Origin: Naegleria lovaniensis
Taxonomy: Eukaryota > Heterolobosea > Eutetramitea > Acrasida > Naegleriidae
DNA length: 64,000 nucleotides
Reading direction: 5' to 3'
NCBI RefSeq assembly: GCF_003324165.1
Contig: NW_025407823.1
Coordinates: forward strand, 744,001-808,000
Shown: positions 49,047 through 64,000 of the stretch, piece by piece
How positions within the stretch are numbered: the first letter of the stretch is position 1
Layout of the letters: every line of letters starts with the position of its first letter
Position numbers and translations under genes: made by a program
The notes under the pieces: model-generated
Databases searched by the model: none
Seen by the model: only the letters and a program-made list of their open reading frames with translations
Told to the model about the DNA's origin: nothing

Positions 49047-52000
49047 TTAGAAAAATTCAAATAAATCCTTATTATTGGTGTTTGAGGACTGCTGAGTGCT
49101 TGAAGAAGTGGTGGAGGTAGTATGTGATAACATCCAATCATTGGTGTTGTTCGAGGTAGTATTGTTACTACTAGTGGAAATGTTGTTGCTACTAGTTCCT
49201 AACCAGCTATCCAAATCATTAAATGTTGTTGCCACTTGTGGAGTGTTGAAAGAAGGAATGACAGCAGCAGTTGGGAAATTATTGTTAAGAACAGGTGATG
49301 CTCTCCAAGGTACATCAAAAGTATTGGTGTTCTGCTGTTGTGGATGTTCATCTGTTGGTTCTTGGAAGTCCCCAAAGTCATCATCATTATTATGTGTTGA
49401 AGCGGTCGTATGCTCCTTCGCTTCTGGGAAATCACCAAATCCATCATCGTCTGAATGATTTGAGATACCTTGTTGCATTGTGTTGGATGAAAGAGGAGTC
49501 ATACCGAGTGGAGGCTGACTGCTAAAACCGAAGAGGTCATTAGTGACGGACTGTGGCGTTGCTTGAATGAAACCGCTGCTCATCGTAGGTGTGTTGCGTT
49601 TTGGGAAATCACTATAGTTGCTACTAACAGGAGAATTATTGGAAAATGGACTAGTTGTTTTTTGAGAAGTCGTCATGATGTTTGTGGGGAACGATGAAAC
49701 CGAGTTGTTGTGGCTGCTCGGTGTGAAATCTGCCAAGCTCATCGTGTTTTGAGTGCTACTAGCAGTATGAGCTGGTTCTTCTTCTTTGGCTTCTGGGAAA
49801 TCTCCAAAATCATCGTCATGGTTGTTCGAAGAAGAGGTTGTCGTTTGTTTCATCCAAGATGATTCCTCAAATTTTGTTACTACGACTGGAGATTGGGTCG
49901 AAACAGATTGAGAAGTAGAAGGCATCATCCAATTGTCAATACCGTTGGTACTTTTTAACGTAGAAGGACTACCCGTTGATTGTGCCCAGCTTGGGCTATT
50001 ATTTGGCTCTCGTGCCACAAAAGTTGGTGATTTTCTAACTTCAACAGTATTCACAGGTTTAAAATCAAATGGATCATCATTGGATGAGGGTGGTGGTACT
50101 GTAGAAGACATTGTTGTTACCACAAATGGTGGCGATACAAGTGGTGGTGTTTGTTGTTGAGAAAGTTGTAAAAATTGATCAATAGAATTCGTACTTGCTT
50201 GTGAAATTGGTAATGATGTAAAGGTGTTGTCGCTCCATGAATCATCGCTTGCAAATTGTGGAACAGTCTCTTCTTTTGGTTCTGGAAATTCTCCAAAATC
50301 ATCGTCGGTGGCAGTGGTGTGTCGTTTTTCATCTTTAGCCTCTGGGAAATCTCCAAAATCATCATTGGATGCTCCAGTAAAAGTATCTTGTGAATTCTTC
50401 TGAGCTGTGTTGGCCGGGACTGACTGCAAACTATTTGAAGGAGCCCCTTCAAAGGTCTTTGATTCTTTTGAAAAATCTTCAGAAACATTTAGTTGTAGAA
50501 CTTTTGATTTCTCGTCATCTTTGGGCTCAGGGAATTCACCAAAATCGTCGTCAAAATTTTGCGATTCCTCATTCTTCAATGAGGTTGCTTGACTTGAAGC
50601 AAGAGGGCTAGTAGCAGGAACAGAAATTTGTTGAGTAGAGGCTGTTGGTGTCGACGAGGTAAAAGTGTCACTTGAATTCCATCCACTATCGTCATTACCC
50701 CAACCATCGTCTGCAAATTTTGGAACGGTGTTTTCTTTTGGTTCTGGGAAATCTCCAAATTCGTCGTTTGCACTGGAAGTCGTGGTCTTTGTGGATGTTA
50801 CAGCAGTAGAACTCTGAGTCGATAATGTGACTTCTTCCTTGTTAGTAGATGTTGGGAAATCTCCAAATCCATCATCTTCAAACTTGTTTGTTTGTAAGGT
50901 GCCACCACTAGCATGAGAAGAAGTTGTTACTGAGGCTGATGATGTGCTGATGGTTGTTGGAATATCATTACTACCACTACCAAAATCGTCATCATCAAAT
51001 TTCGCTTCAAACTTGTCGCTTGATTCCTGTGATTTTTGGAGTACTGGACTTTCTTGCTTTTTTGTGACTGAATTGACAGATGTTGATGAAAGAGCAGTAG
51101 TGCTTGCTTGAGTAGAAGGTGGTGCACTACCCCACGAGTCATTGTCATTCCCCCAACTGTCGTCGTCATCAAAACCTTTTGATGACTGCTGGGAAGAAGA
51201 GGATTTAACAGGGATTGAAATCTTCTCCAACACTGGTGAGGCGCCAGTAGTGATTATGGTTACAGGTGGTTGTACATTGGAAATGGCACTTGTTTTGTTG
51301 TTCATGGGTGTAGACACTGTTGAGGAAGATGCTTCCTTCTTTGCAGCAACAGTGGGTTGTGGTTTTGGAGAAGTGAAATCAGAGCCAAACACAAGAGCTG
51401 CAATATCATCAAGCTCAGCACTCTTGGTCTTGGTTGGAGTGTAAGATGACATAAGTTCATCAAAATGATGCTGGTTTGCAGTTGTTGTTGTTGCTGGAGA
51501 AATAGAACTGCTGGATGGTACTGGAGAGATTGATCTTGGCGATTGCATGTTCAAGGGTGGTCTTGGAGACAAGTGTAAATCTGTGACTGTTGAGTTCATT
51601 CTTCGATGTCTTGCTCCTCCTATCATTCTTTGAGAAATCGTTCCAATATCGTCAATTTTCATACGTTGATCCACAGCCTCAGAGGTTTCTCCTTGTTGAC
51701 TTGAATCACTGGATATTGGGGATGAAACGGTATGAGAGGCTGTTCGTCTGTGTACAACTTTTCTTAATGGCTTGTGTTGCTTCTTGTTCTTCTTTTTTTC
51801 TAATCCTAATGCAAGTAGGAAATGTTTTTCGACACAGCTATTTTGCCAAACAGCCATTTTGCTTAAAATATCAGCATTGTGGTTGGAGTTCATGTTAAAC
51901 AATTTTTCGAGCGTGTTGTTAGAAAGATTTTCAGAGGAGAAAGAATTTGCATCATTGTGAGCAGGCACTCGAAGCTCTGGAGGTACAAGTCCATTAAGCA

Positions 52001-53660
52001 AAGTATGAATAGAAATATTAAGCTTTGCCGTCTCTTCAGCACTTTTCTTGTCAATTGCAAGAATAGAATCGATAACGTATTTCTGCGAGTTAACGTCTAT
52101 TTCAAAGGTGTCTTCGACCTTTGTTGTCTGATCCAATATTGGTTCTAGTTGAGGTTCAGATTGTGCAGTTTGTTGTTCTTCTTTTGGTTCTTCAAAATCT
52201 CCAAATCCGTCATCATCGCCACTGTGTTGAGGTTCTGTATTTTTAGCCTCCGTAAAATCACCAAAGTCATCGTCGTCATTAGTTTTTTCTGTGACTATTG
52301 GCTCATTAAAATCTCCAAAGTCATCATCTGTTGCAGATTCATTTTGGTTGTCTTGAGATGATAAATTATTTTGGATGGTCGAATTTGGAGTGCTCTCAAA
52401 TGAGCTATTGTCAAAATTATTAGCTTGTAAATTTTCTGCGACCGGTTCAACATTGAAATTTGCATCGAATTCATCCGTTGATGATGGTTGTTGATTGATA
52501 GGCTCAGAGGTGGATGATGGAAATGAATCAAAACTAGCTTCAAAATTGTCATTAAAATCCTGAGGGTTGGAGCTCTGAGTTTGTGTGAATTCTGCTGGTT
52601 GTGTGGAAGAGTTTGCAAATGATGATTCCTCAAACTCTTCTTCAAATTGATTTTTGATTGGCTCATCTTGCTCAACAGTTGATGGCGGTTCTGTTACAGG
52701 TTTGTCAAACTCAGAGTCTCCGAAATCAGCTGCAAAATTTTCTTGTGATGTCTCTTGGTCAGATTCTTGTTTCTGTTCCAATGTAGATTCAGAGTTTGTC
52801 TCAGTTTCGTCATTCATTGCTGAAGATGTATGATGTTGTGACTCCAACTCGGAAGGAGTGAACGTTTGAAAATCAGAATCAGATTCTTGAGGCTTAGTTT
52901 CATTTTTAAATTCACTCATAGAGTCACTTGTGAGCAATGTATCATCGTTGTTGCTTGTGTTGTTAAATAAATTATTATTGTCAATATTCGAAGGAGAAGT
53001 AGTTTCCTGATGGATATTGTCGTCAATAGTGGAGGATTTTGTAAAATTATTTTCTTGATCGTCGTTGTTTGTAACGGTGTCTTCTAAATCGTTTGTTTGC
53101 CCTTCCGACTCAACTGTTGTTGTTGTTTGGGAAGATTCAATATTCTCTGTTTGTACTTCCTCTGGATGGTCTTTTTGAGGAACCGTGGTCATCTCATGTT
53201 GCGGTTGTTGAGAGTCTTCTTCTTCTTGTTGCTCCTCTGTTATTTGTGTTTGTTGTTGCTCGTGGATATTATTATTTGTTGAGGATGGTATGGAACTCTC
53301 TTGATGATGAAGCACGATTTCAGGAGTTGAGTTTTCTTCTGAAGAATGAATTTCATCCTCTACCGAAGCATGTTGTTCTGCTCCATCTAGAGAAGAAGTA
53401 CTCGGATTTGTCATGTCATTGGTTGTTGTTGTTGGTGGTGAAATTAGTTCTTCATCTCCTGTTGCCGCCGTAGTGTTGTCCCGATTGATTTCTTCATAAG
53501 AGGTGGGTGGTGGAACGTCAGCTACAACGCTATCGTTCTTGTTGGTAGGAGGAGTTTGATCTTCGTGTTCATCATGAATAATAATTTGTTGTTGTTGTTC
53601 ATCATCAACCATGAAACTCGAACCCTCTTCGGGTGTTACCACGAAACCTTCTCCGGACAT
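49047..53660 (-). CDS. Large acidic protein with eleven FGDF/FGEF motifs, aftiphilin-like
   Basis: 1537 residues, ATG at 53660. Most is disordered, Ser/Thr/Asn/Gln/Glu-rich. Eleven copies of (D/E)DxFG(D/E)F, most followed by PEAK or PEPK, are spread over 49360-52340. Such acidic phenylalanine motifs bind the gamma-adaptin ear of AP-1 and GGA proteins in aftiphilin, gamma-synergin and p56 (family knowledge). A single predicted folded segment lies at about 51770-52110 (ETAKLNISIHTLLNGLVPPELR, ending in WQNSCVEKHFLLALGLEKK). Its Trp, Asn-Ser and LLALGL pattern resembles the clathrin-binding domain of aftiphilin. Together this supports a clathrin/AP-1 accessory role at the trans-Golgi or endosome. 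It could instead be a disordered scaffold. The start lies only 34 bases from the next ATG. Confidence 0.55.
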   Translation of the reverse strand: MSGEGFVVTPEEGSSFMVDDEQQQQIIIHDEHEDQTPPTNKNDSVVADVPPPTSYEEINRDNTTAATGDEELISPPTTTTNDMTNPSTSSLDGAEQHASVEDEIHSSEENSTPEIVLHHQESSIPSSTNNNIHEQQQTQITEEQQEEEDSQQPQHEMTTVPQKDHPEEVQTENIESSQTTTTVESEGQTNDLEDTVTNNDDQENNFTKSSTIDDNIHQETTSPSNIDNNNLFNNTSNNDDTLLTSDSMSEFKNETKPQESDSDFQTFTPSELESQHHTSSAMNDETETNSESTLEQKQESDQETSQENFAADFGDSEFDKPVTEPPSTVEQDEPIKNQFEEEFEESSFANSSTQPAEFTQTQSSNPQDFNDNFEASFDSFPSSTSEPINQQPSSTDEFDANFNVEPVAENLQANNFDNSSFESTPNSTIQNNLSSQDNQNESATDDDFGDFNEPIVTEKTNDDDDFGDFTEAKNTEPQHSGDDDGFGDFEEPKEEQQTAQSEPQLEPILDQTTKVEDTFEIDVNSQKYVIDSILAIDKKSAEETAKLNISIHTLLNGLVPPELRVPAHNDANSFSSENLSNNTLEKLFNMNSNHNADILSKMAVWQNSCVEKHFLLALGLEKKKNKKQHKPLRKVVHRRTASHTVSSPISSDSSQQGETSEAVDQRMKIDDIGTISQRMIGGARHRRMNSTVTDLHLSPRPPLNMQSPRSISPVPSSSSISPATTTTANQHHFDELMSSYTPTKTKSAELDDIAALVFGSDFTSPKPQPTVAAKKEASSSTVSTPMNNKTSAISNVQPPVTIITTGASPVLEKISIPVKSSSSQQSSKGFDDDDSWGNDNDSWGSAPPSTQASTTALSSTSVNSVTKKQESPVLQKSQESSDKFEAKFDDDDFGSGSNDIPTTISTSSASVTTSSHASGGTLQTNKFEDDGFGDFPTSTNKEEVTLSTQSSTAVTSTKTTTSSANDEFGDFPEPKENTVPKFADDGWGNDDSGWNSSDTFTSSTPTASTQQISVPATSPLASSQATSLKNEESQNFDDDFGEFPEPKDDEKSKVLQLNVSEDFSKESKTFEGAPSNSLQSVPANTAQKNSQDTFTGASNDDFGDFPEAKDEKRHTTATDDDFGEFPEPKEETVPQFASDDSWSDNTFTSLPISQASTNSIDQFLQLSQQQTPPLVSPPFVVTTMSSTVPPPSSNDDPFDFKPVNTVEVRKSPTFVAREPNNSPSWAQSTGSPSTLKSTNGIDNWMMPSTSQSVSTQSPVVVTKFEESSWMKQTTTSSSNNHDDDFGDFPEAKEEEPAHTASSTQNTMSLADFTPSSHNNSVSSFPTNIMTTSQKTTSPFSNNSPVSSNYSDFPKRNTPTMSSGFIQATPQSVTNDLFGFSSQPPLGMTPLSSNTMQQGISNHSDDDGFGDFPEAKEHTTASTHNNDDDFGDFQEPTDEHPQQQNTNTFDVPWRASPVLNNNFPTAAVIPSFNTPQVATTFNDLDSWLGTSSNNISTSSNNTTSNNTNDWMLSHTTSTTSSSTQQSSNTNNKDLFEFF
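49360..52340 (-). repeat. Dispersed FGDF/FGEF acidic motif repeats
   Basis: Eleven degenerate copies of an about 36-base element encoding (N/S)DDDFGDFPEAK-type peptides, separated by variable low-complexity linkers. The consensus is acidic residues, FG, (D/E)F and a Pro-Glu-Ala/Pro-Lys tail. An additional degenerate copy reads DDDFGSGS. The multiplicity would give avidity for a protein with a small Phe-binding pocket. Confidence 0.8.
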
Positions 53661-53694: not shown

Positions 53695-54776
53695 ATGATG
53701 ACGATAGTGAATGTGGCTGTTTGCTTGATAACATGGAGATGTACTGTTCTTCTGTACCATGTTATCAACAAACTCTTCATCAAAGCCTCCAAAACCGCTC
53801 ACTCAAAAGGAATTAGTGTTGTTCAACACTGGAGAAGATACGAAAATAACAAGACTTTAGACAGTGCACCAGTTATCTTTCATAGTGTTTATGAGAATTC
53901 GAAAAAAACGTTCATTCATGATGGAAGCAGTCAAGCTCAACAGTGTGCATTTAATTTCGCTTTGCAGGATTTGAAAATGGACAAGCACATCGTTCTTAAA
54001 ATGTTACAACAAAATTGGAGAGCCCTCAAAGATGTCTCAGAGGATTTTAAAAAGGACAAGGAAATTGTTATGCAAGCAGTGAAACAAAATTGGTGTGCAC
54101 TGCAATTTGCCTCAGAGTATTTGAAAAAGGATTATGAAATTGTTCTAGCAGCTATCAAAGGAAATGGTTTTGAATTTCGATATGCTTCAGATGATTTGAG
54201 GAAGGACAAACATTTGTTGCTTGAAGCTGCGAAACAAAGACTGTTACTCTTAGCATCAGACCCACAAAGGGACGATGTTAAAACAATTTTACTCAAGTTT
54301 AATTACACTGATCTTGTATCTGCTTTCGTTTCAATAGAGTTAAAAACCAATAAGGCTTTTGTGCGAGGTAGTCAGAATTGAAAAGACGGGCGTTAGTGTT
54401 TGCTCAGTGGAGAAGGACAAAGAAAAACAAAAATCAATGTTGAACAAACTGCTTTCATATGGCCAACCATCACATCGAGTATTGGTTAAACTTGAAGACG
54501 ACCAACTAGGAATGGCCACTTCAACAGTGACCATTGTCAGACTCATTCCGGTCTCTGGAGGAACAGGTGAAGAATGAATTTCAAGTATTGGAACGTTTTA
54601 GCATTGTATTGACCTATTTTGACCCTTCGTTGGAAGAGATGTGGACAATCAGCAATGATCAAGATTTGAAAGATTGTTTGGAACTCTTCAATGGTCAGTC
54701 TATCGAAAACTCTGAAAAGTTTATCCAAATTTCTGTTCGGAAAAAGTTGCGTAAAGTTGAATCCACTTCTATGTAA
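53695..54776 (+). pseudogene. DUF4116-repeat plus PB1-like gene, in several frames (possible pseudogene)
   Basis: The first frame (53695-54381, ATG at 53695; an alternative ATG in another frame at 53759) contains three clear DUF4116 repeats: ALKDVSEDFKKD, ALQFASEYLKKD and EFRYASDDLRKD. It stops at a TGA at 54379. The next frame (+1) continues from SQN to EKTGVSV and KDKEKQKSMLNKLLSYGQ, ending with a TGA at 54575. A further +1 frame encodes FQVLERFSIVLTYFD ... MWTISNDQDLKDCLELF, which matches a PB1-domain C-terminal half (hydrophobic strand, acidic SNDQDL). The three pieces line up as one protein if T is skipped at 54379 and 54575. Short GT-AG introns of 31-40 bases are phase-compatible, but weak. 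Sequence error or decay is as likely. Confidence 0.5.
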
Positions 54777-54830: not shown

Positions 54831-57800
54831 CTATTCCTTTCGCAGAATTTGACTCAACTCGTCTATGCCCTTCTGCCATGTCAACCACCCATCTTCGGAC
54901 TGTTTTTTGCTCTCTTGTACTGGAGTGGCGTATACAGTTTTTGACTGTTGTTTCTTAATGGACGTCATGCCATGTGTTGTATTGTTAAGGAAAATCTTAT
55001 TGAGCGCAAGTTTGGGAATTGTTGGAGGTTTGGGCGACGCACTTGTTGTGACTCCGTGTCTATCGCCGCTACTAGCGCCAGTATTGAGAAAACTTTTTCG
55101 AAAGGAGCTCACGTTCTTCGGTGTTTTTACCTCTTTCTTTGGAGAAACATTGGAGGAATGCTGTTTTGCTATTTTAGGGGTTTTTTCTTTGAGCTTGACG
55201 ACCGGAGCATTGCCATAGGTTTCTTTCAAAAAGTCTGAATACGTTTTCTTTTTCGGAGATCCTTCACTACTGCATCTATCGTCTTGAGAAGATGTCATAC
55301 TGCTAACACTGCCCGAAGACGATCCGTGAGTAATATTTAAGGTACTACCACGCGAAAGTAACAAGCTGGTACTGATTTCAGAAACCGTTGCCCATAGTTT
55401 CTCCTCCTTTTGTTTTCTTTCCATGAATTGGTTTTTCATGAGACGTTGCTCTTCTTCTTTCAAAAGTTTTTGTTTCTCTTCCAGTTCCTGAGAGTATTTG
55501 GCAATTCTTGATTCAGCCTCTCTAATCTTTCTTTCACGATCTTCAAGATCTAGCCTTCTTTTTTCTTGCTGACGTTTGGCTTTGTTGTTTTTAAGAGCTA
55601 AATCGATTGCTCTTCGCGTCTTATACGCTCTCCAGGCCCTCTGAATGATGATTACTGCCTCAAGCAAATGTGTGTGGAAATATCTTGTTTTAAACTTTTT
55701 CCATGCGTGTTGGATGGTAAGTGCAGCTCGATTTTGTCTATCAAATTCATTCTTCTTTTGCTCGTTTTTCCGTTTGATGACTTCAAATTTTCGCTTACGA
55801 AGCTCTTTTTCAATTTCAGAATATTTCCTCTCTCTGTACAAGGATTGAAGCATCACAGCCAATCGCTCAAGCGTAGAAATTTGTCTCTTCAATAAACCAC
55901 CACGTATGAACGCTTGAATTACAATTACACTCTCAATGACCTTTTCGTTGCGTGATAAAATTACAGGTTTGTTTTGCGAGATTGATAATGATGACTTTTT
56001 CTTAACTAGCGCTTTTTGGGGTAGCTGAGATTTGTCAATTCCATGTTTTGTGTTTTCCTTTCTCTTCATTAAACTATAGGCGTACGATTTTTGCATCTTC
56101 TTTTTTCTTTCTTTGATAGGAGTTGGTTGTGATGTGTTACGTGCGTCATCAACCATTGTTGTTACATTTGGTTTAGAATCCTCGTTTGCAACGTCGTTCT
56201 TTCTTAAGGGATCTCTTCTCTTAGATATTAATTCTCTGAGAGATTTGAAAATTTGTCGTCTTATTATAACTAATCTCCATTGTCGCTGAATTACTAATGC
56301 TGCTTCCTCCATTATTTGAAGAACCCTTTTCCTGAGAAAATCATAGGCATCTTTTTTCATTAAAATGTTGTATTTCCCAACAAAGTAGGACAGCTTGTCG
56401 TTAGAGTCATGATTTGAACCTAGATAATGCTGCAAAACGTTTGTGGCTAATGACACCATGTCTTTTCGTTTGCTGGTGTTGGAATCCTTTAAAAACTGTA
56501 GCTTGAATGTTAAGCTATTGAATGTTCTCCAAAATGTGGTTGGAGAGAGAACATAATCGAAAGATTTTTCATTTGTTTCTGCAACAAATGAAAGCACGCT
56601 ACATGCAATTTGTGAGGTCAAATTGGAAAATGATGACTCTGCTAATTGTGTGTCTGTTGAGCTGGAGGTGTTCAAATAACAAAATGTAAGAAATGTAGGG
56701 TCCGCATTTAAGGCCGTTGAGCTCAATAATTGTTTCATGTTTGCCAAAAACTCCTTATGAGTTTCGCTAATATCAACGCAGGGTATTCCATTACGAATTA
56801 TTTGATACTCCGGTGCTTCGTTCACAGCCGTTGGAAAGATTGCATCCATACTGTACTCAAATCGACCAAATGAGTGGTCGATAACAAGATGGTCTTCATC
56901 AGACTTACATATGTTCACACAGCTTAACCCATAGTACGAATTGTTTCTAAAATATTGAATAATACTATCAATCGCTTCATACTTTTCTTGATAGGCTGAT
57001 TGTTGAGACAAAGCGGGGAATGTGCATAATATTCCTTGGCTTCCCAATAAAAAGTCTATGACTTCTCGACTTGGTGACTTCTCTAGGACGTCCACAAGAG
57101 GATCCGTAAGCTTGTACCCCTCTCTGGTATGAATGGATGAGATGTCTTCAATAAGATACTGTAAAGCCCAAGAGTATAAATGCTCGCTACTAACATTGCA
57201 CCATAAATCACCAAAATAATGCAACGAATTATTATGAGCGAGCTCAGGCAAACTAATTATATGAATGGCAGACAGCTGATCCGGCTCCAATTCGTCTTCT
57301 GCTTCTTCGATGTTCGTGAAGGACTTTGAAGCAAGGTGTCCCTTTTCTACAACCCATCTGAAAATTGCTTCGTACACAACACACGCAAAATCTGTACTAC
57401 TTTTGAAGGTACCTGGTAAAACTTTTCCGCTGATCATGGAGTTCATGTTTTTCAGCACCTCAAATCTTTCCATTTGCAGTATGTCACACAAATGTGCCAA
57501 CAATTCGCTATCAAAGGTTTCAATATGCCTTTCCATATCCATTCTTAATCCTTCTTTGAATACATCTACGGAAGATCTGTCATCAATATCGATGAGTAAT
57601 AATACCATTGAAAGACCCCTCAAAAAAGCATTAATTTCTCGAGTAGAACATTTGAGAGCTCGTTTCACATTCTTGAGTAAATCATAAAATTTAGCTTCTG
57701 CGTTAGTAGTGTCTTTTTTCAGCTCCTCTATGAAACTGAAATGTTTTAATCCAATAAACGTATGACCAAGAAGCGGTTCTATCATCTTTGTTGGAGCACA

Positions 57801-58670
57801 AAGCAAATCTTTAAATATTTCGAAATGTTCCAGTATTAGACGAACTGAGCTTTGATATGGATTCGTCTTTCTTTTTAATATGTACTCAATTTCATATCGA
57901 TTAAATAAAAACGCTAATACATCAAAATCCATGATTGAAGGATTGACTTGATACGTGTCAGTACCCCTTTTGAAAGTGAGAGTAATATTAAATCCAAAAC
58001 TCGGCTTTATCATTCCGTATGGTGATGAAACATCTCGACTGGATCCGAGTTTATACAGGAGGCACAATTGTTCGGAAAGAATGCACTTTGAAAATCGATA
58101 CCCACCATCCGTTTCTCTAGCTTTCGGGCTGTTATTGAGTTCTTCGCTATTCTTTTGAGCTGTGCACTCGAAGAATAGTTTATCCAAAGTTTGGGTGATC
58201 ACATCAATTCTTTCTTCTCTCGTCTTTCCGAGGAGAACCAGCGTTTGTGGTTTTGGGCTATTTTTCAAAGATTCAACAATGCGAGAAGTCATGACCTCTG
58301 CATAAAGAATGTTCGTTGAAGAGAAATGAGAACACGAAGATGGACCAAGCAAGCTCGTTAAAAAGTGAGGACGTATTTGGGTCACCGGTTTTCCCATATT
58401 CAATCGTTTGATCATTAGGGAAGCCACTGAATTTAGCCACTCCGACGTTTGTTGGGGCTTGATCCATAAAAACTTGCTGGAATTCTCGGTCTTGGCCATA
58501 TTTCTTCTAAAATTATGCTTGCTAGTGTTCCTTGAATAACGCAGCAGCTTTTTGAATTGATCCAGTATATCCTCATCCTCCTCATTTCGAAGTTCTTTTC
58601 TGTTGTTGTGCGTTGGTTCGGCTTGAGGATGATCGATCTCATCTTCAGCCATCCATAACGGATTAAGCAT
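54831..58670 (-). CDS. Degenerate myosin heavy chain with IQ motifs (probable pseudo-motor)
   Basis: 1279 residues from ATG 58670. Residues ~70-760 align in order with myosin head landmarks, although poorly: the N-terminal YAEVM segment before the P-loop, LVLLGKT at 144-150 in place of GESGAGKT, SSRDVSSPYG at 210-219 (switch I region, normally NNSSRFGK), IISLPELAHNNSLHYFGDLW at 471-490 (switch II/relay, normally DIFGFE...NSFEQL), and EHLYSWALQYL (normally EKLQQFFN). Then come IQ motifs at about 790, 917, 985 and 1007 (for example AALTIQHAWKKFKTR and AVIIIQRAWRAYKTRR), a short coiled coil at about 1030-1075 and a Ser/Lys-rich tail. IQ motifs bind calmodulin-type light chains. The ATPase residues are gone, so it likely does not hydrolyse ATP. 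The order of landmarks is the main evidence; alternative: another IQ-protein with a chance resemblance. Confidence 0.5.
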   Translation of the reverse strand: MLNPLWMAEDEIDHPQAEPTHNNRKELRNEEDEDILDQFKKLLRYSRNTSKHNFRRNMAKTENSSKFLWIKPQQTSEWLNSVASLMIKRLNMGKPVTQIRPHFLTSLLGPSSCSHFSSTNILYAEVMTSRIVESLKNSPKPQTLVLLGKTREERIDVITQTLDKLFFECTAQKNSEELNNSPKARETDGGYRFSKCILSEQLCLLYKLGSSRDVSSPYGMIKPSFGFNITLTFKRGTDTYQVNPSIMDFDVLAFLFNRYEIEYILKRKTNPYQSSVRLILEHFEIFKDLLCAPTKMIEPLLGHTFIGLKHFSFIEELKKDTTNAEAKFYDLLKNVKRALKCSTREINAFLRGLSMVLLLIDIDDRSSVDVFKEGLRMDMERHIETFDSELLAHLCDILQMERFEVLKNMNSMISGKVLPGTFKSSTDFACVVYEAIFRWVVEKGHLASKSFTNIEEAEDELEPDQLSAIHIISLPELAHNNSLHYFGDLWCNVSSEHLYSWALQYLIEDISSIHTREGYKLTDPLVDVLEKSPSREVIDFLLGSQGILCTFPALSQQSAYQEKYEAIDSIIQYFRNNSYYGLSCVNICKSDEDHLVIDHSFGRFEYSMDAIFPTAVNEAPEYQIIRNGIPCVDISETHKEFLANMKQLLSSTALNADPTFLTFCYLNTSSSTDTQLAESSFSNLTSQIACSVLSFVAETNEKSFDYVLSPTTFWRTFNSLTFKLQFLKDSNTSKRKDMVSLATNVLQHYLGSNHDSNDKLSYFVGKYNILMKKDAYDFLRKRVLQIMEEAALVIQRQWRLVIIRRQIFKSLRELISKRRDPLRKNDVANEDSKPNVTTMVDDARNTSQPTPIKERKKKMQKSYAYSLMKRKENTKHGIDKSQLPQKALVKKKSSLSISQNKPVILSRNEKVIESVIVIQAFIRGGLLKRQISTLERLAVMLQSLYRERKYSEIEKELRKRKFEVIKRKNEQKKNEFDRQNRAALTIQHAWKKFKTRYFHTHLLEAVIIIQRAWRAYKTRRAIDLALKNNKAKRQQEKRRLDLEDRERKIREAESRIAKYSQELEEKQKLLKEEEQRLMKNQFMERKQKEEKLWATVSEISTSLLLSRGSTLNITHGSSSGSVSSMTSSQDDRCSSEGSPKKKTYSDFLKETYGNAPVVKLKEKTPKIAKQHSSNVSPKKEVKTPKNVSSFRKSFLNTGASSGDRHGVTTSASPKPPTIPKLALNKIFLNNTTHGMTSIKKQQSKTVYATPVQESKKQSEDGWLTWQKGIDELSQILRKE

Positions 58671-58799: not shown

Positions 58800-61700
58800 T
58801 CACGCATAATACGAAGGAGAGCTGGTTTGGAAGAGATCATGTAATGTTCCAAGTTGCTGTTCCGTAAATTTTTGTTGGTGAATTTGCCACATGTCTGAAT
58901 GACATTTCACAAATTCTTGGAATGTCTTCTTAACGGTCTCTCTTATCGATTGCACACTGTCATTTGCAAATTTAGCCAGTGAGCAAAGCATGTCAGGAAT
59001 AAAGTCAGGAACAGAGTATGGGAATGCTAGAGCAACAGCAGATAATCCAAGAACACCACTATGACGTTCAGTTGTCTCCTTTGAAGAGAGTTTGTCCGAT
59101 GATATCTTGGCATTTCTGTTCTTGAATGCTTTTTCTTTGAATTCTGGAATTAATTTCTCAGAATATTCTGTGCTGGATATTTTGAGAAATCCTGAAAGTG
59201 TAATTGCAGCCATTTGTCTTACTTCAAGCTGTTGATCTCTAAGCATGGTTGTAATAATTTCGAAAAGCTTAGGTAGTTTGTCAGTCAAGTAAAATTCTTG
59301 TCTATATGCAAATATTTGAAGAAATTCAAGCAATGCGCTTCTAATTGACCAATTAACAAAAGTTGCAGAATCTTTTCCGACAATTTCGTCATACAAAAAT
59401 GTAATCACTGTGTTGGCTAAAAGTTTGGAAAAGGAGAATGCAGAGAGTGATATAATATCATGTTGGCATAGAGATTGTAAATCATCGTCTTGCGATGTGG
59501 TATGCTCGTAAATTGTGGAAATGATTTTGATATAATTGGTGATTTCTCCAGAGCCACAATGAGGAGAGCTCGAGTTAAACAACCCTGAAATTATTGCTAA
59601 CACAGTTTTGCTTAAATTTTTAAATTCTGAATACTTCTTGTCAAATTCTGGGCTGTCATGTGGCATGGTTTTGATCAACTTTTCCTGTTGTTCAAGATGT
59701 TCATATAAATTGATATTGAATTTTCTCAAATAATCGTATTGCGTCTCATCATTTGTGATGTTGAGCAATGTAAAGGATGGCAACTTGTTATGTTCAAGTC
59801 GAGGTGGATTCCATAATGACTTGTAAATGAACGAAACGAATAAACCGACATATTCCCTAACTAGTTCAGCATCATGATGAAGGGTAGTGGAGCACAATTC
59901 ATCCAATAACAAGCGTAGTAAGTAAGGAGATCTCCAACTGATTTCTCCAACAATACCATATAAATATTTCAAAAATCTAGCTTGGAGAATGGCCTCAACA
60001 TCTTTCTTTTGAAGAGAAGATTTGGTTTTTTCAATCATGTATCGAATAAGCCATCCCAGCCTTCTTATATCCTTATCGCAAATAGCAAACTCCAGTCCTT
60101 CAGAAATTTCTCCCACGCTATTTGTAGAACTTTGCTCCAATACTTTGTCGAACACTGGAATGATAAATTCTGTAATGGCTCGTTGCTGTTGAGAATAGTC
60201 CCAATGTTTCATTCCTCGAATTAAGCCTCCAACAATTTCTGATATCAATGCAACATGGTGAACCTCTTCAGGACCACCAGAGCCAACCATAGGTAAGAGT
60301 ATTGATTCAATGTGAGGCTTGCAAAGGTCAAGAAAGCCTTGCGACCCGGATTCACAGGGAAATACTTGAAATAAGCCCTTAAATAACTGAGCGTTGGATT
60401 CAATAAAGCCATCGTCTCTATGCGTCAGTAAGCGAATAAATTTAGAGACAAAATCATCCTCAAGCAGAATTGGTTGCAATTCTCTCTTGATAATGGCTTG
60501 CTTGGAGCAATCTTTTGGTTGTTCATAATCATATACTTCCACTCTGTCTGGGAGTGTGTACCATCCAAAGTAATTCTTTTCATAACAATTGGATTTCTTC
60601 CAATTCTCTTCAGATTCAAAATCTATACCCAACGCACCCCAATCAAGGGTGTTATTGACTGTAGTTGGATGAGGAGAAATGAGCTTTTTCTTTTGTACAG
60701 GTTTGTATTGACAAAGAATCAAATTAATTGCTTCACATGCAATAATTCTGGACTTCTCCAAATCACTTATCATCTGTTTGAAAAAGAATTTGGCAGCTTC
60801 GACTGGGAATAATTGGTCAGGTCTAATCATTAACATTAAAAAACTGCTAGCAAATGTATGATATTTCCAGTGCCAGCCTCCCTTACTTTTAGCAATCTCT
60901 GTTGTTTCTAAAATAATACGTTCGTACTTTTGCCTGTCCTTTTCGTTGGCAATCTGAATGTGATAGAATGCATTGAAGTACGTTTCAAATAATTGAGCCA
61001 ATCGTTGCTGAATGCTTTGTTTCTCGATATGACTTGTTTGAAAAAGTGCAAGCAAAAACTTGGAGCATAAATCCCAGTCTCTAATAACACAAGAAACGGC
61101 AAAAGGTTTTTCCAATATGAAAATACAACCCGTTCGTTGCTCGTCTGTCGATTTCTTATCAACTAAAACTTCAATCAATCTGGGAAGGAAGCTCTTAATA
61201 ACCTTATCAGAGAATTTGTTAATGCATGACATGAGTACGGACTGTGCACGTTTTCTGACTTCAGAGTATGAATGCAGCGAAAGACGAAGTAAGTCATCCA
61301 GTAACCTTTGATGATATTTGGTGTATGGAATAGATTCGTTATGAATAACACATCTAACCTTGTACTCCAGCAAGGCTTGAATCAATAATAAATATCTAGG
61401 ATATTTGTTTGATGTAGTCGAGTATACATCTTTGTAGCTGTGTTGCTTGACAAACTCATGAGAAGATTTCTTTTTCTTGTATCTGTAACGAGTGTTTCCT
61501 CCTCTCATGGCTATCATTGGGAAAAATATTTTACAAATCTTACCAATGAGATTAGGGTCCTTATCGGATCGATGCTCAAGTATAACCTCAGTAAGATCAT
61601 GCAAAGTGTCGCAAACTTGTTCGTAACTAGAAGCCAAGGTTACTGACTTACACTTTGCAGCGACACACAAGCCAGCATCTATCAATCTAGAAGATGGATA

Positions 61701-64000
61701 TTGATTCATTTCTTCCATTACTCCCTTTTCAATCTCAGGATAAAGAGTATTGCCTCCTCTCATTGCATATCTGATAAAAATAAGGTGATTCTTCAATTTC
61801 TGAATATCTGGTATATTACCACCCTTCTCTTTCATGAGTGCGACGCATGCATTAATGTTGGCAACAGAGTCAGTCAAGTATCTGTTGCACAGCTCAATGG
61901 CAAATTGTAGCTCTTCTTGAGTAGGTTCATGCCAATTAATTTCAAACTCATCAAGCGAAATAAATTCTCCCCATGATTGCCAATGATGATAATTCTTAAA
62001 CTCTTCAGTGCTCCATTGGCTTGCATTCACTGACTTCAATTCTAACAAGTAGTATTTGGTTAATGACCTTAGAACGTTTCTAAATAGTTTTCCGCATATC
62101 TTTACCACCTTCTTTTTTTCTGAAATATAGCAAAGAGAAATAACTGTCTCAATTTGTTGTCTATACTTTAAAAGATGAGCACCTGTTCGATAACAAACTT
62201 GGCCTAGAATTTGTAAATAATATTGGGTTTCCATGTCTGTTAAATTCTTGAGACGTTTTCCATCCCTATCTACAAGCTTTTTATAAAGCATTGGAATGAA
62301 AAGCGCCAATGTTTGTTCTGGATACGCATATGCAATGGAAGAGCACATATGAGCAATGTTTTTCTTTGCGTTAAATAAAAAATTAGAATCTACAAAGTTA
62401 TAAATTCTCTTGAGAGAAATGTCCAATAATTCTGTCGACATTTGATTGAATAGTAAGTCGCATAAACCCCAAAACATGCTTGGAGAAATAACATCAGTAT
62501 CTCCTTGAGCAGTTTTTGGATCTGTTTGATGAGACAGTACATTAAAAATCCTTTCCAAGAGCTCGATTGACCAATCCTCGAATACTCGCACAACCTCAGG
62601 AGGAGTTCTATCGCCTTGTGATGCTCCTGTTGTACATAGAGGTACACAAACCAAAAGTGAAGTATAAAATTTTAAAGTAGAGAACGTCTTGGCATTATCA
62701 TTCACATCAATACCAGGAAGAGTTAATTGCAATAAATTAGAAAGATAGTTGGCACCGTCTGGGTAAAGTGAATATTTCAGGAGTGGGAATACAACCAGAG
62801 AGAGAGTTTCGAGGGCTGAGATTGTTTGATGTGTGTTTGTGAGAGTCTCCAACGCATAAAAACTTCTTTCCATAAGGGAAGGGAATACCTCTTGCGGGAG
62901 GATATAAGCCAAATGTTTTAGAGAGTGGTTTGCACATGTAGTCATTTGATTACTTTTGGAAAACAATGATGTCATTGCAAGTGGTTGAACAATGCTAACA
63001 AACTCTTTACAGTCGTCCTCCGTCAACCTATATTCTTCAGGGATCCATTGATAACCTCCATTCTTTGAAGCTGAATATGTTTCTTCTGTGAATCCCTTCA
63101 TTCCTCTTTCTATATCCAGACGTTTTCCAAATTTAGTACATAGAATTAAGAGAAAGTCTGCACATTTGCTTGTCCATTGTCCTTCGTTGGAAGGCTGGAA
63201 AAAGTTTGAAACTGATTTGATGAGCTGGTTGAGAAGTTTCAGGGCGTTAGACTTCTTTGAAATCATCCAAACTATTAGCTTGGCGGCATTTGCCAAAAGT
63301 AAATTCTTTGCAATGTCAAATGGAGTTAATAAATTCAATTCATCATTTGGATATTCTTCGTAATTCGATGCAACAGGAGTATTTCCAATGGGTAAGTCAA
63401 AGCATTTCATGGTCTTTGTGAAAATGAACAGTGTATACGGCTCCCAATCGACATAGCCAGCTTGATCCTGCGCAAGATTTGCGAATAATGTGAAAAAGCT
63501 CAAATCCCAAGTAGGATACAACCCAATCCAATCCCAAATACCAAAGAACTCGTCAACCCACTGGTCGTAGTGATTTTTTTTGAATGTCAATGGATCTTTG
63601 GATGTTGGACCTTCCAATTTGGTTGGTAGCATGATACTTAGAAAAGCTTGTGCTTGAAAAATCTTGTGGTCATTAATGCATAACATGGGCCTGAAGAATT
63701 TCAACATTTCATACGTGGAATCTTCGGTGAAGTATCTCTTTAACTTTCTGATCAAGTCAACCAGTGCGGCTCCGTGTTCTCTTGGGCTATACAAGGCATT
63801 TCTAAACTTGGTGAAGTAGGTTTTGTCAATGATGTCATAAACCACCTTCCAATCAAATGTAACATCCAATAATTCACTTTTCTTGAGGAGTGAAGATAAT
63901 CCATAACAGCACTTTACCTGGGTTGAAAAGTCTACGCTATAGCTATCTTTGCTTGATATCTTGAGAATATTAAATAGAATTTTGCAAAGTTCGGCTTTTT
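58800..64000 (-). CDS. Proteasome activator PA200/Blm10 (5' partial)
   Basis: The frame is open from the stop at 58800 past 63869 to the window end, so the start lies outside; about 1733 residues are visible, including the extra N-terminal stretch beyond 63869 with no ATG. It is a large HEAT-like helical protein. Matches to PA200/Blm10 are clear: the WVDEFFGIWDWIGLYPTWD segment near the N-terminus, AGYVDWEPY, and the conserved C-terminal block with HSGVLGLSAVALAFPYSVPDF and SIRETVKKTFQEF. The last three residues are YYA, the HbYX motif whose insertion into the 20S alpha pockets opens the gate (family knowledge). It therefore probably caps the 20S proteasome, degrading unfolded or acetylated proteins without ubiquitin. 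No intron seen. Confidence 0.92.
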   Translation of the reverse strand, partial: KAELCKILFNILKISSKDSYSVDFSTQVKCCYGLSSLLKKSELLDVTFDWKVVYDIIDKTYFTKFRNALYSPREHGAALVDLIRKLKRYFTEDSTYEMLKFFRPMLCINDHKIFQAQAFLSIMLPTKLEGPTSKDPLTFKKNHYDQWVDEFFGIWDWIGLYPTWDLSFFTLFANLAQDQAGYVDWEPYTLFIFTKTMKCFDLPIGNTPVASNYEEYPNDELNLLTPFDIAKNLLLANAAKLIVWMISKKSNALKLLNQLIKSVSNFFQPSNEGQWTSKCADFLLILCTKFGKRLDIERGMKGFTEETYSASKNGGYQWIPEEYRLTEDDCKEFVSIVQPLAMTSLFSKSNQMTTCANHSLKHLAYILPQEVFPSLMERSFYALETLTNTHQTISALETLSLVVFPLLKYSLYPDGANYLSNLLQLTLPGIDVNDNAKTFSTLKFYTSLLVCVPLCTTGASQGDRTPPEVVRVFEDWSIELLERIFNVLSHQTDPKTAQGDTDVISPSMFWGLCDLLFNQMSTELLDISLKRIYNFVDSNFLFNAKKNIAHMCSSIAYAYPEQTLALFIPMLYKKLVDRDGKRLKNLTDMETQYYLQILGQVCYRTGAHLLKYRQQIETVISLCYISEKKKVVKICGKLFRNVLRSLTKYYLLELKSVNASQWSTEEFKNYHHWQSWGEFISLDEFEINWHEPTQEELQFAIELCNRYLTDSVANINACVALMKEKGGNIPDIQKLKNHLIFIRYAMRGGNTLYPEIEKGVMEEMNQYPSSRLIDAGLCVAAKCKSVTLASSYEQVCDTLHDLTEVILEHRSDKDPNLIGKICKIFFPMIAMRGGNTRYRYKKKKSSHEFVKQHSYKDVYSTTSNKYPRYLLLIQALLEYKVRCVIHNESIPYTKYHQRLLDDLLRLSLHSYSEVRKRAQSVLMSCINKFSDKVIKSFLPRLIEVLVDKKSTDEQRTGCIFILEKPFAVSCVIRDWDLCSKFLLALFQTSHIEKQSIQQRLAQLFETYFNAFYHIQIANEKDRQKYERIILETTEIAKSKGGWHWKYHTFASSFLMLMIRPDQLFPVEAAKFFFKQMISDLEKSRIIACEAINLILCQYKPVQKKKLISPHPTTVNNTLDWGALGIDFESEENWKKSNCYEKNYFGWYTLPDRVEVYDYEQPKDCSKQAIIKRELQPILLEDDFVSKFIRLLTHRDDGFIESNAQLFKGLFQVFPCESGSQGFLDLCKPHIESILLPMVGSGGPEEVHHVALISEIVGGLIRGMKHWDYSQQQRAITEFIIPVFDKVLEQSSTNSVGEISEGLEFAICDKDIRRLGWLIRYMIEKTKSSLQKKDVEAILQARFLKYLYGIVGEISWRSPYLLRLLLDELCSTTLHHDAELVREYVGLFVSFIYKSLWNPPRLEHNKLPSFTLLNITNDETQYDYLRKFNINLYEHLEQQEKLIKTMPHDSPEFDKKYSEFKNLSKTVLAIISGLFNSSSPHCGSGEITNYIKIISTIYEHTTSQDDDLQSLCQHDIISLSAFSFSKLLANTVITFLYDEIVGKDSATFVNWSIRSALLEFLQIFAYRQEFYLTDKLPKLFEIITTMLRDQQLEVRQMAAITLSGFLKISSTEYSEKLIPEFKEKAFKNRNAKISSDKLSSKETTERHSGVLGLSAVALAFPYSVPDFIPDMLCSLAKFANDSVQSIRETVKKTFQEFVKCHSDMWQIHQQKFTEQQLGTLHDLFQTSSPSYYA

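Follow-up and report, generated by a model that had tools for sequence, protein, structure and literature searches.

We describe a gene of Naegleria lovaniensis that probably encodes a pseudomyosin, a protein of myosin descent with a decayed adenosine triphosphate (ATP) site, most likely working as a fixed scaffold. The gene lies in a stretch of 64,000 nucleotides (contig NW_025407823.1, positions 744,001 to 808,000, assembly GCF_003324165.1), called here the window. It is a single open reading frame (ORF) at 54831-58670 on the minus strand, as a preliminary description of this DNA had it, with 1279 codons, an ATG start, 3840 bp and zero internal stops. That description had taken the product for a myosin-like pseudo-motor with ruined nucleotide-binding motifs and an IQ neck. 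Overall this is partly supported: the roughly 700 residues ahead of the first IQ motif (IQ1) match myosin heads over their whole length, well beyond what chance would give. The open-access literature (subscription journals were outside the search) yielded no paper about the protein.

Evidence for myosin descent comes from full-length global alignment. When residues 70-775 were aligned end to end with a myosin head profile, using two profiles and three gap costs (six settings), z scores were 7.0-8.3 and none of 500 shuffles was as good at any setting; these z values are somewhat inflated, because the segment ends 70 and 775 had been picked by eye from the sequence beforehand. As decoys, we cut 54 segments of the same length from 11 other proteins of the window, in forward and in reversed reading. 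None reached the score of the query (z 3.7-3.9 against decoys). Matched controls were taken from stretches ahead of IQ motifs in eight other genes, six of which yielded ORFs that were long enough. The 31 segments obtained gave top z scores of 1.6 and 2.5 with the two profiles, compared to 7.5 for the query. With the query moved to residues 1-706, z fell to 3.5 and 3.0; for the tail half it was -0.2. Twelve null models preserving order or composition (shuffling inside 10-, 20- or 40-residue blocks, permutation of 20- or 60-residue blocks, rotation) never reached the observed score in 400 trials each, with z scores of 5.4-8.8.

The alignment runs colinearly from ahead of the P-loop through the converter end, which adjoins IQ1. 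Sixteen of its 17 forty-column blocks are positive and the remaining one is close to zero. Several registers can be read directly: FEIFKDLL falls on FHIFYQL of myosins, STREINAFLRGLSMVLLLID on the myosin helix ending in AAILHLGN, FACVVYEAIFRWVVEK on myosin LAKSIYERMFDWIVKR and HLVIDHSFGRFEYSM on myosin FSLKHYAGKVKYNV. Hydrophobic residues occupy 124 of 183 hydrophobic consensus columns (base rate 0.36), a count that is only descriptive because the aligner favours such matches. Against 12 single myosins, z scores ranged from 0.9 (L011, 37 of 200 shuffles as good) to 5.7 (L012, the closest), and seven of the 12 beat all 200 shuffles; these values are too weak for a tree assigning the protein to a class. 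Altogether, homology of the head region to myosin is well supported by sequence comparison. The landmark order noted in the preliminary description does exceed chance, by full-length global alignment only; local and end-free alignments do not show it.

The layout of the gene is as follows, all positions being those of the window.

54831..58670, minus strand: whole ORF of a degenerate myosin that has an IQ neck and a tail (1279 aa, open frame)
56346..58463, minus strand: myosin-head-like region, residues 70-775 (z 5.4-8.8 in global profile alignment, according to the null)
58215..58241, minus strand: P-loop position, residues 144-152 (LVLLGKTRE), a shortened loop (profile alignment)
57990..58043, minus strand: switch I position, residues 210-227, SSR ... 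FG with an insertion holding SSPYG (register ambiguous)
57237..57260, minus strand: switch II position, residues 471-478 (IISLPELA) (profile alignment)
57141..57230, minus strand: relay-helix-like stretch, residues 481-510 (NSLHYFGDLWCNVSSEHLYSW ...), aligned to NSFEQLCINYVNEKLQQ
56670..56696, minus strand: residues 659-667 (TFLTFCYLN), the equivalent of HFIRCIKPN (MAFFT only; gapped in the global profile alignment)
56355..56393, minus strand: converter end, residues 760-772 (LSYFVGKYNILMK), aligned to KYQIGKTKVFLK
56250..56291, minus strand: IQ1, residues 794-807 (full IQ pattern)
55878..55919, minus strand: IQ2, residues 918-931, beyond a 110-residue basic linker (full IQ pattern)
55818..55850, minus strand: partial IQ, residues 941-951 (partial pattern)
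55674..55715, minus strand: IQ, residues 986-999 (full IQ pattern)
55605..55646, minus strand: IQ, residues 1009-1022 (full IQ pattern, Pfam)
55395..55598, minus strand: charged helix-like stretch, residues ~1025-1092, a possible coiled coil or single helix (by eye)
54834..55394, minus strand: Ser/Lys-rich tail, residues 1093-1279 (by eye)

The three stretches quoted in the preliminary description, LVLLGKT, SSRDVSSPYG and IISLPELA, start at residues 144, 210 and 471. Their destruction as nucleotide motifs is confirmed for two of them. The P-loop block keeps 2.5 of 22.1 bits, GESGAGKT being aligned to GKT---RE, and the switch II block keeps 1.1 of 19.4 bits, DIYGFE being aligned to SLP--E. Switch I, however, still has 13.9 of 26.4 bits if SSR (210-212) and FG (226-227) are matched across the insertion; SSPYG offers an alternative register, so that the assignment here is ambiguous. 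From the aligned residues, P-loop and switch II have both lost positions, and switch I is interrupted rather than plainly erased. Of the motifs that mark a functional motor, GESGAGKT of the P-loop and DIxGFE of switch II are lost and NNSSRFGK of switch I is interrupted. To judge by the sequence, what is present is a myosin-derived head with a presumably non-working ATP site in an intact gene.

The neck is in the expected place, IQ1 beginning 22 residues past the converter end (794 compared to 772). Pfam finds IQ with E 4.7e-10 in three stretches, plus a weak match to a second IQ model. The kept IQ neck of the preliminary description needs amending on one point: four full IQ patterns (at 794, 918, 986 and 1009) and one partial pattern (941) are indeed there, but the neck is split rather than continuous, because the basic linker parts IQ1 from the remaining IQ motifs (124 residues from IQ1 to IQ2). 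A sixth, partial match to the pattern, at residue 1251, falls within the tail and has no resemblance to an IQ motif. The coiled coil named in that description corresponds to the charged stretch at about residues 1025-1092, which by eye may be a coiled coil or a single helix.

How such a protein might work can be proposed from this layout. Head, converter and IQ lever would be kept in the usual myosin order around an ATP site that has decayed, P-loop and switch II having become shorter and switch I having been interrupted. ATP binding and hydrolysis in the myosin manner should then not occur: for a truncated phosphate-binding loop and a broken switch II, myosin biochemistry predicts that the ATP-driven cycle is absent. 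The lower part of the head may stay attached to actin, or to some other molecule that the head once bound, with no ATP-driven detachment. Calmodulin or light chains would sit on the IQ motifs, giving a Ca2+-responsive lever, and cargo or a partner at the cortex could be bound by the charged helix together with the Ser/Lys-rich tail.

The protein could also be a degenerate myosin whose head is off actin too, acting as a sink for calmodulin or light chains or as an IQ/tail adaptor, with an inert head or one repurposed as a platform. Low identity (116 of 596 columns) and the lack of distinguishable conserved surface elements fit this proposal, as does a MyoG-derived protein of Leishmaniinae (PMC5778035) that is nearly without motor domain and in which a coiled coil and an IQ motif remain. 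Against it, the frame is open, the head has its full length and the hydrophobic core columns are retained, which suggests that the head fold is under selection. We consider a head without actin contact possible though rather unlikely.

Several results weigh against descent from myosin altogether, and they are to be added to the choice of segment ends mentioned above. The homology test concerns this one sequence, and only 116 of 596 aligned columns (19%) are identical to the profile consensus. Pfam Myosin_head (PF00063) gave no match at E <= 10 with the whole protein or with residues 60-810, and phmmer against PDB chains gave zero matches at E <= 10. Local hmmsearch with a profile of 12 myosin heads from the same genome (own-myosin profile) scored the query at 7.9 bits, compared to 2.1 for the best of the first 200 shuffles and 5.7 for the reversed sequence; in a second set, one of 200 shuffles reached 8.3 bits. 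Once L014 was dropped from the profile, the query scored 5.3 bits, its reverse 8.9 and one shuffle 7.4. Local similarity by itself is no proof of myosin kinship, because shuffled or reversed sequences score as high. End-free alignment slides toward end overlaps and gave z scores of 4.7, -0.8, 2.9 and -1.1 in four settings. With hhalign, the local mode gave 17% probability (single-target E 0.0015, 281 columns) and the global mode found no match. Finally, AlphaFold run on residues 60-810 as a single sequence produced a predicted local distance difference test score (pLDDT) of 36.5 and a predicted template modelling score (pTM) of 0.22, with 0 residues above 50. Such a model neither backs nor disproves a myosin fold.

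An unrelated IQ protein, whose helical composition happens to mimic the myosin order, would account for the insignificant local and end-free searches and for the failure of AlphaFold to yield a fold. It has difficulty with the global colinear score, which is above every null, including those that keep local composition and those that permute intact 20- or 60-residue blocks, and we regard it as improbable. That the protein is a slow or switch-like myosin retaining altered nucleotide binding is very improbable: a GKT triplet still stands where the P-loop would be and SSR where switch I would be, but the loop is short of residues for GxxxxGK[ST], and of DIxGFE only SLP--E is left. A pseudomyosin of myosin descent is kept as our interpretation.

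The preliminary description had also foreseen that annotation by myosin domain would be blind to the protein, and in the searches made here the Pfam myosin model indeed gives no match. A PF00063 search of the genome (30.69 Mb in 97 contigs), in which only the best candidates were scored, returned 31 matches elsewhere and none at this gene. No second copy or close relative of the 1279-aa protein was found in the same genome (E <= 10). Searches for its relatives produced 7 pattern matches in viral contigs and 44 in prokaryote genomes, none of which was confirmed; the same was true of 214 pattern matches to myosins in viral contigs.

The same genome holds two other myosin-derived proteins with altered motifs, which in these respects resemble the 1279-aa protein. 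L022:770-5173 (minus strand, G000:C10) encodes 1467 aa with a very degenerate myosin head, carrying GEGSKEKQ at the P-loop position. It scored 26.6 bits in the PF00063 genome search, below cut-off, was missed by hmmscan, and reached 30.6-31.6 bits with own-myosin profiles, compared to about 6 for the best shuffle. Beyond both being myosin-like, it has no pairwise similarity above noise to the 1279-aa protein. The ORF upstream of it (L022:5207-6214) contains, by eye, a stretch resembling the myosin N-terminal SH3-like domain. L023:2814-5612 (minus strand, G000:C4), a divergent myosin of 932 aa, is a milder case. It differs from the 1279-aa protein in its kept P-loop (GDSASGKS) and its Pfam score (212.6 bits), while switch I (KCSSRVTRN) and switch II (DIGVGFE) are altered; it stops shortly past the converter and has no Pfam IQ motif at E <= 10. 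One may tentatively imagine that Heterolobosea keep a hidden set of pseudomyosins, comprising this protein and at least that of L022, whose heads, gone from the ATPase cycle, would be permanent actin-binding scaffolds tuned by Ca2+/calmodulin and which would go uncounted in inventories because family models miss them; we find this possible but doubtful.

In the window, the gene is flanked directly upstream, on the same strand and across a 129-base gap, by a PSME4/BLM10-type proteasome activator (58800-63998, minus strand, Pfam), and downstream by a DUF4116 repeat protein (53695-54381, plus strand, Pfam). An ORF of 1537 aa at 49047-53660 (minus strand) has no Pfam match at E <= 10.

Myosin inventories across eukaryote evolution depend on head-profile detection; the 2014 survey of Sebe-Pedros used Pfamscan with the gathering threshold (PMC3942036). 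A myosin that has decayed below threshold with its full head layout kept means that such surveys can undercount pseudomotors. The protein would also be a natural test of the role of a myosin head once ATP is removed.

Myosins without motor function are a known kind, and comparison with them locates the present case. Drosophila Dachs, described as a myosin-like F-actin-binding scaffold without motor function (PMC5047748), can be likened by description, not by sequence comparison, as a non-motor myosin head of possible scaffold type. It differs in being recognised as a myosin and in belonging to animal Fat signalling. Myo18A is reported to have negligible ATPase and weak F-actin binding (PMC11112018); in Myo18A/B the motifs can still be plainly recognised, with substitutions and with insertions in loops, which are milder changes, whereas the Naegleria protein has a shorter P-loop and switch II and goes unmatched by the family model. 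The closest precedents come from the same broad protist group. In MyoG-derived proteins of Leishmaniinae (PMC5778035) hardly anything is left of the motor domain, and the parts that persist include a coiled coil and an IQ motif. The trypanosomatid MyoH-derived gene (PMC5778035) codes for MyHd, a protein without the P-loop that is found at the cytopharynx and has been called a pseudomyosin (PMC7300353). MyHd of Trypanosoma cruzi and its kin are, like the present protein, degenerate discoban myosins in which the conserved P-loop is gone and which are hard for BLAST. In MyHd the recognisable head is down to a short stretch (MYSc_Myo13, 144 aa), with which it is still scored as a myosin, whereas the Naegleria protein can be aligned over the full-length head, has no myosin match and bears an IQ neck. 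With the MyHd/MyoH-derived and MyoG-derived precedents, the kind is already known; what is new is the Naegleria case itself, in which the whole head layout persists while standard models miss it.
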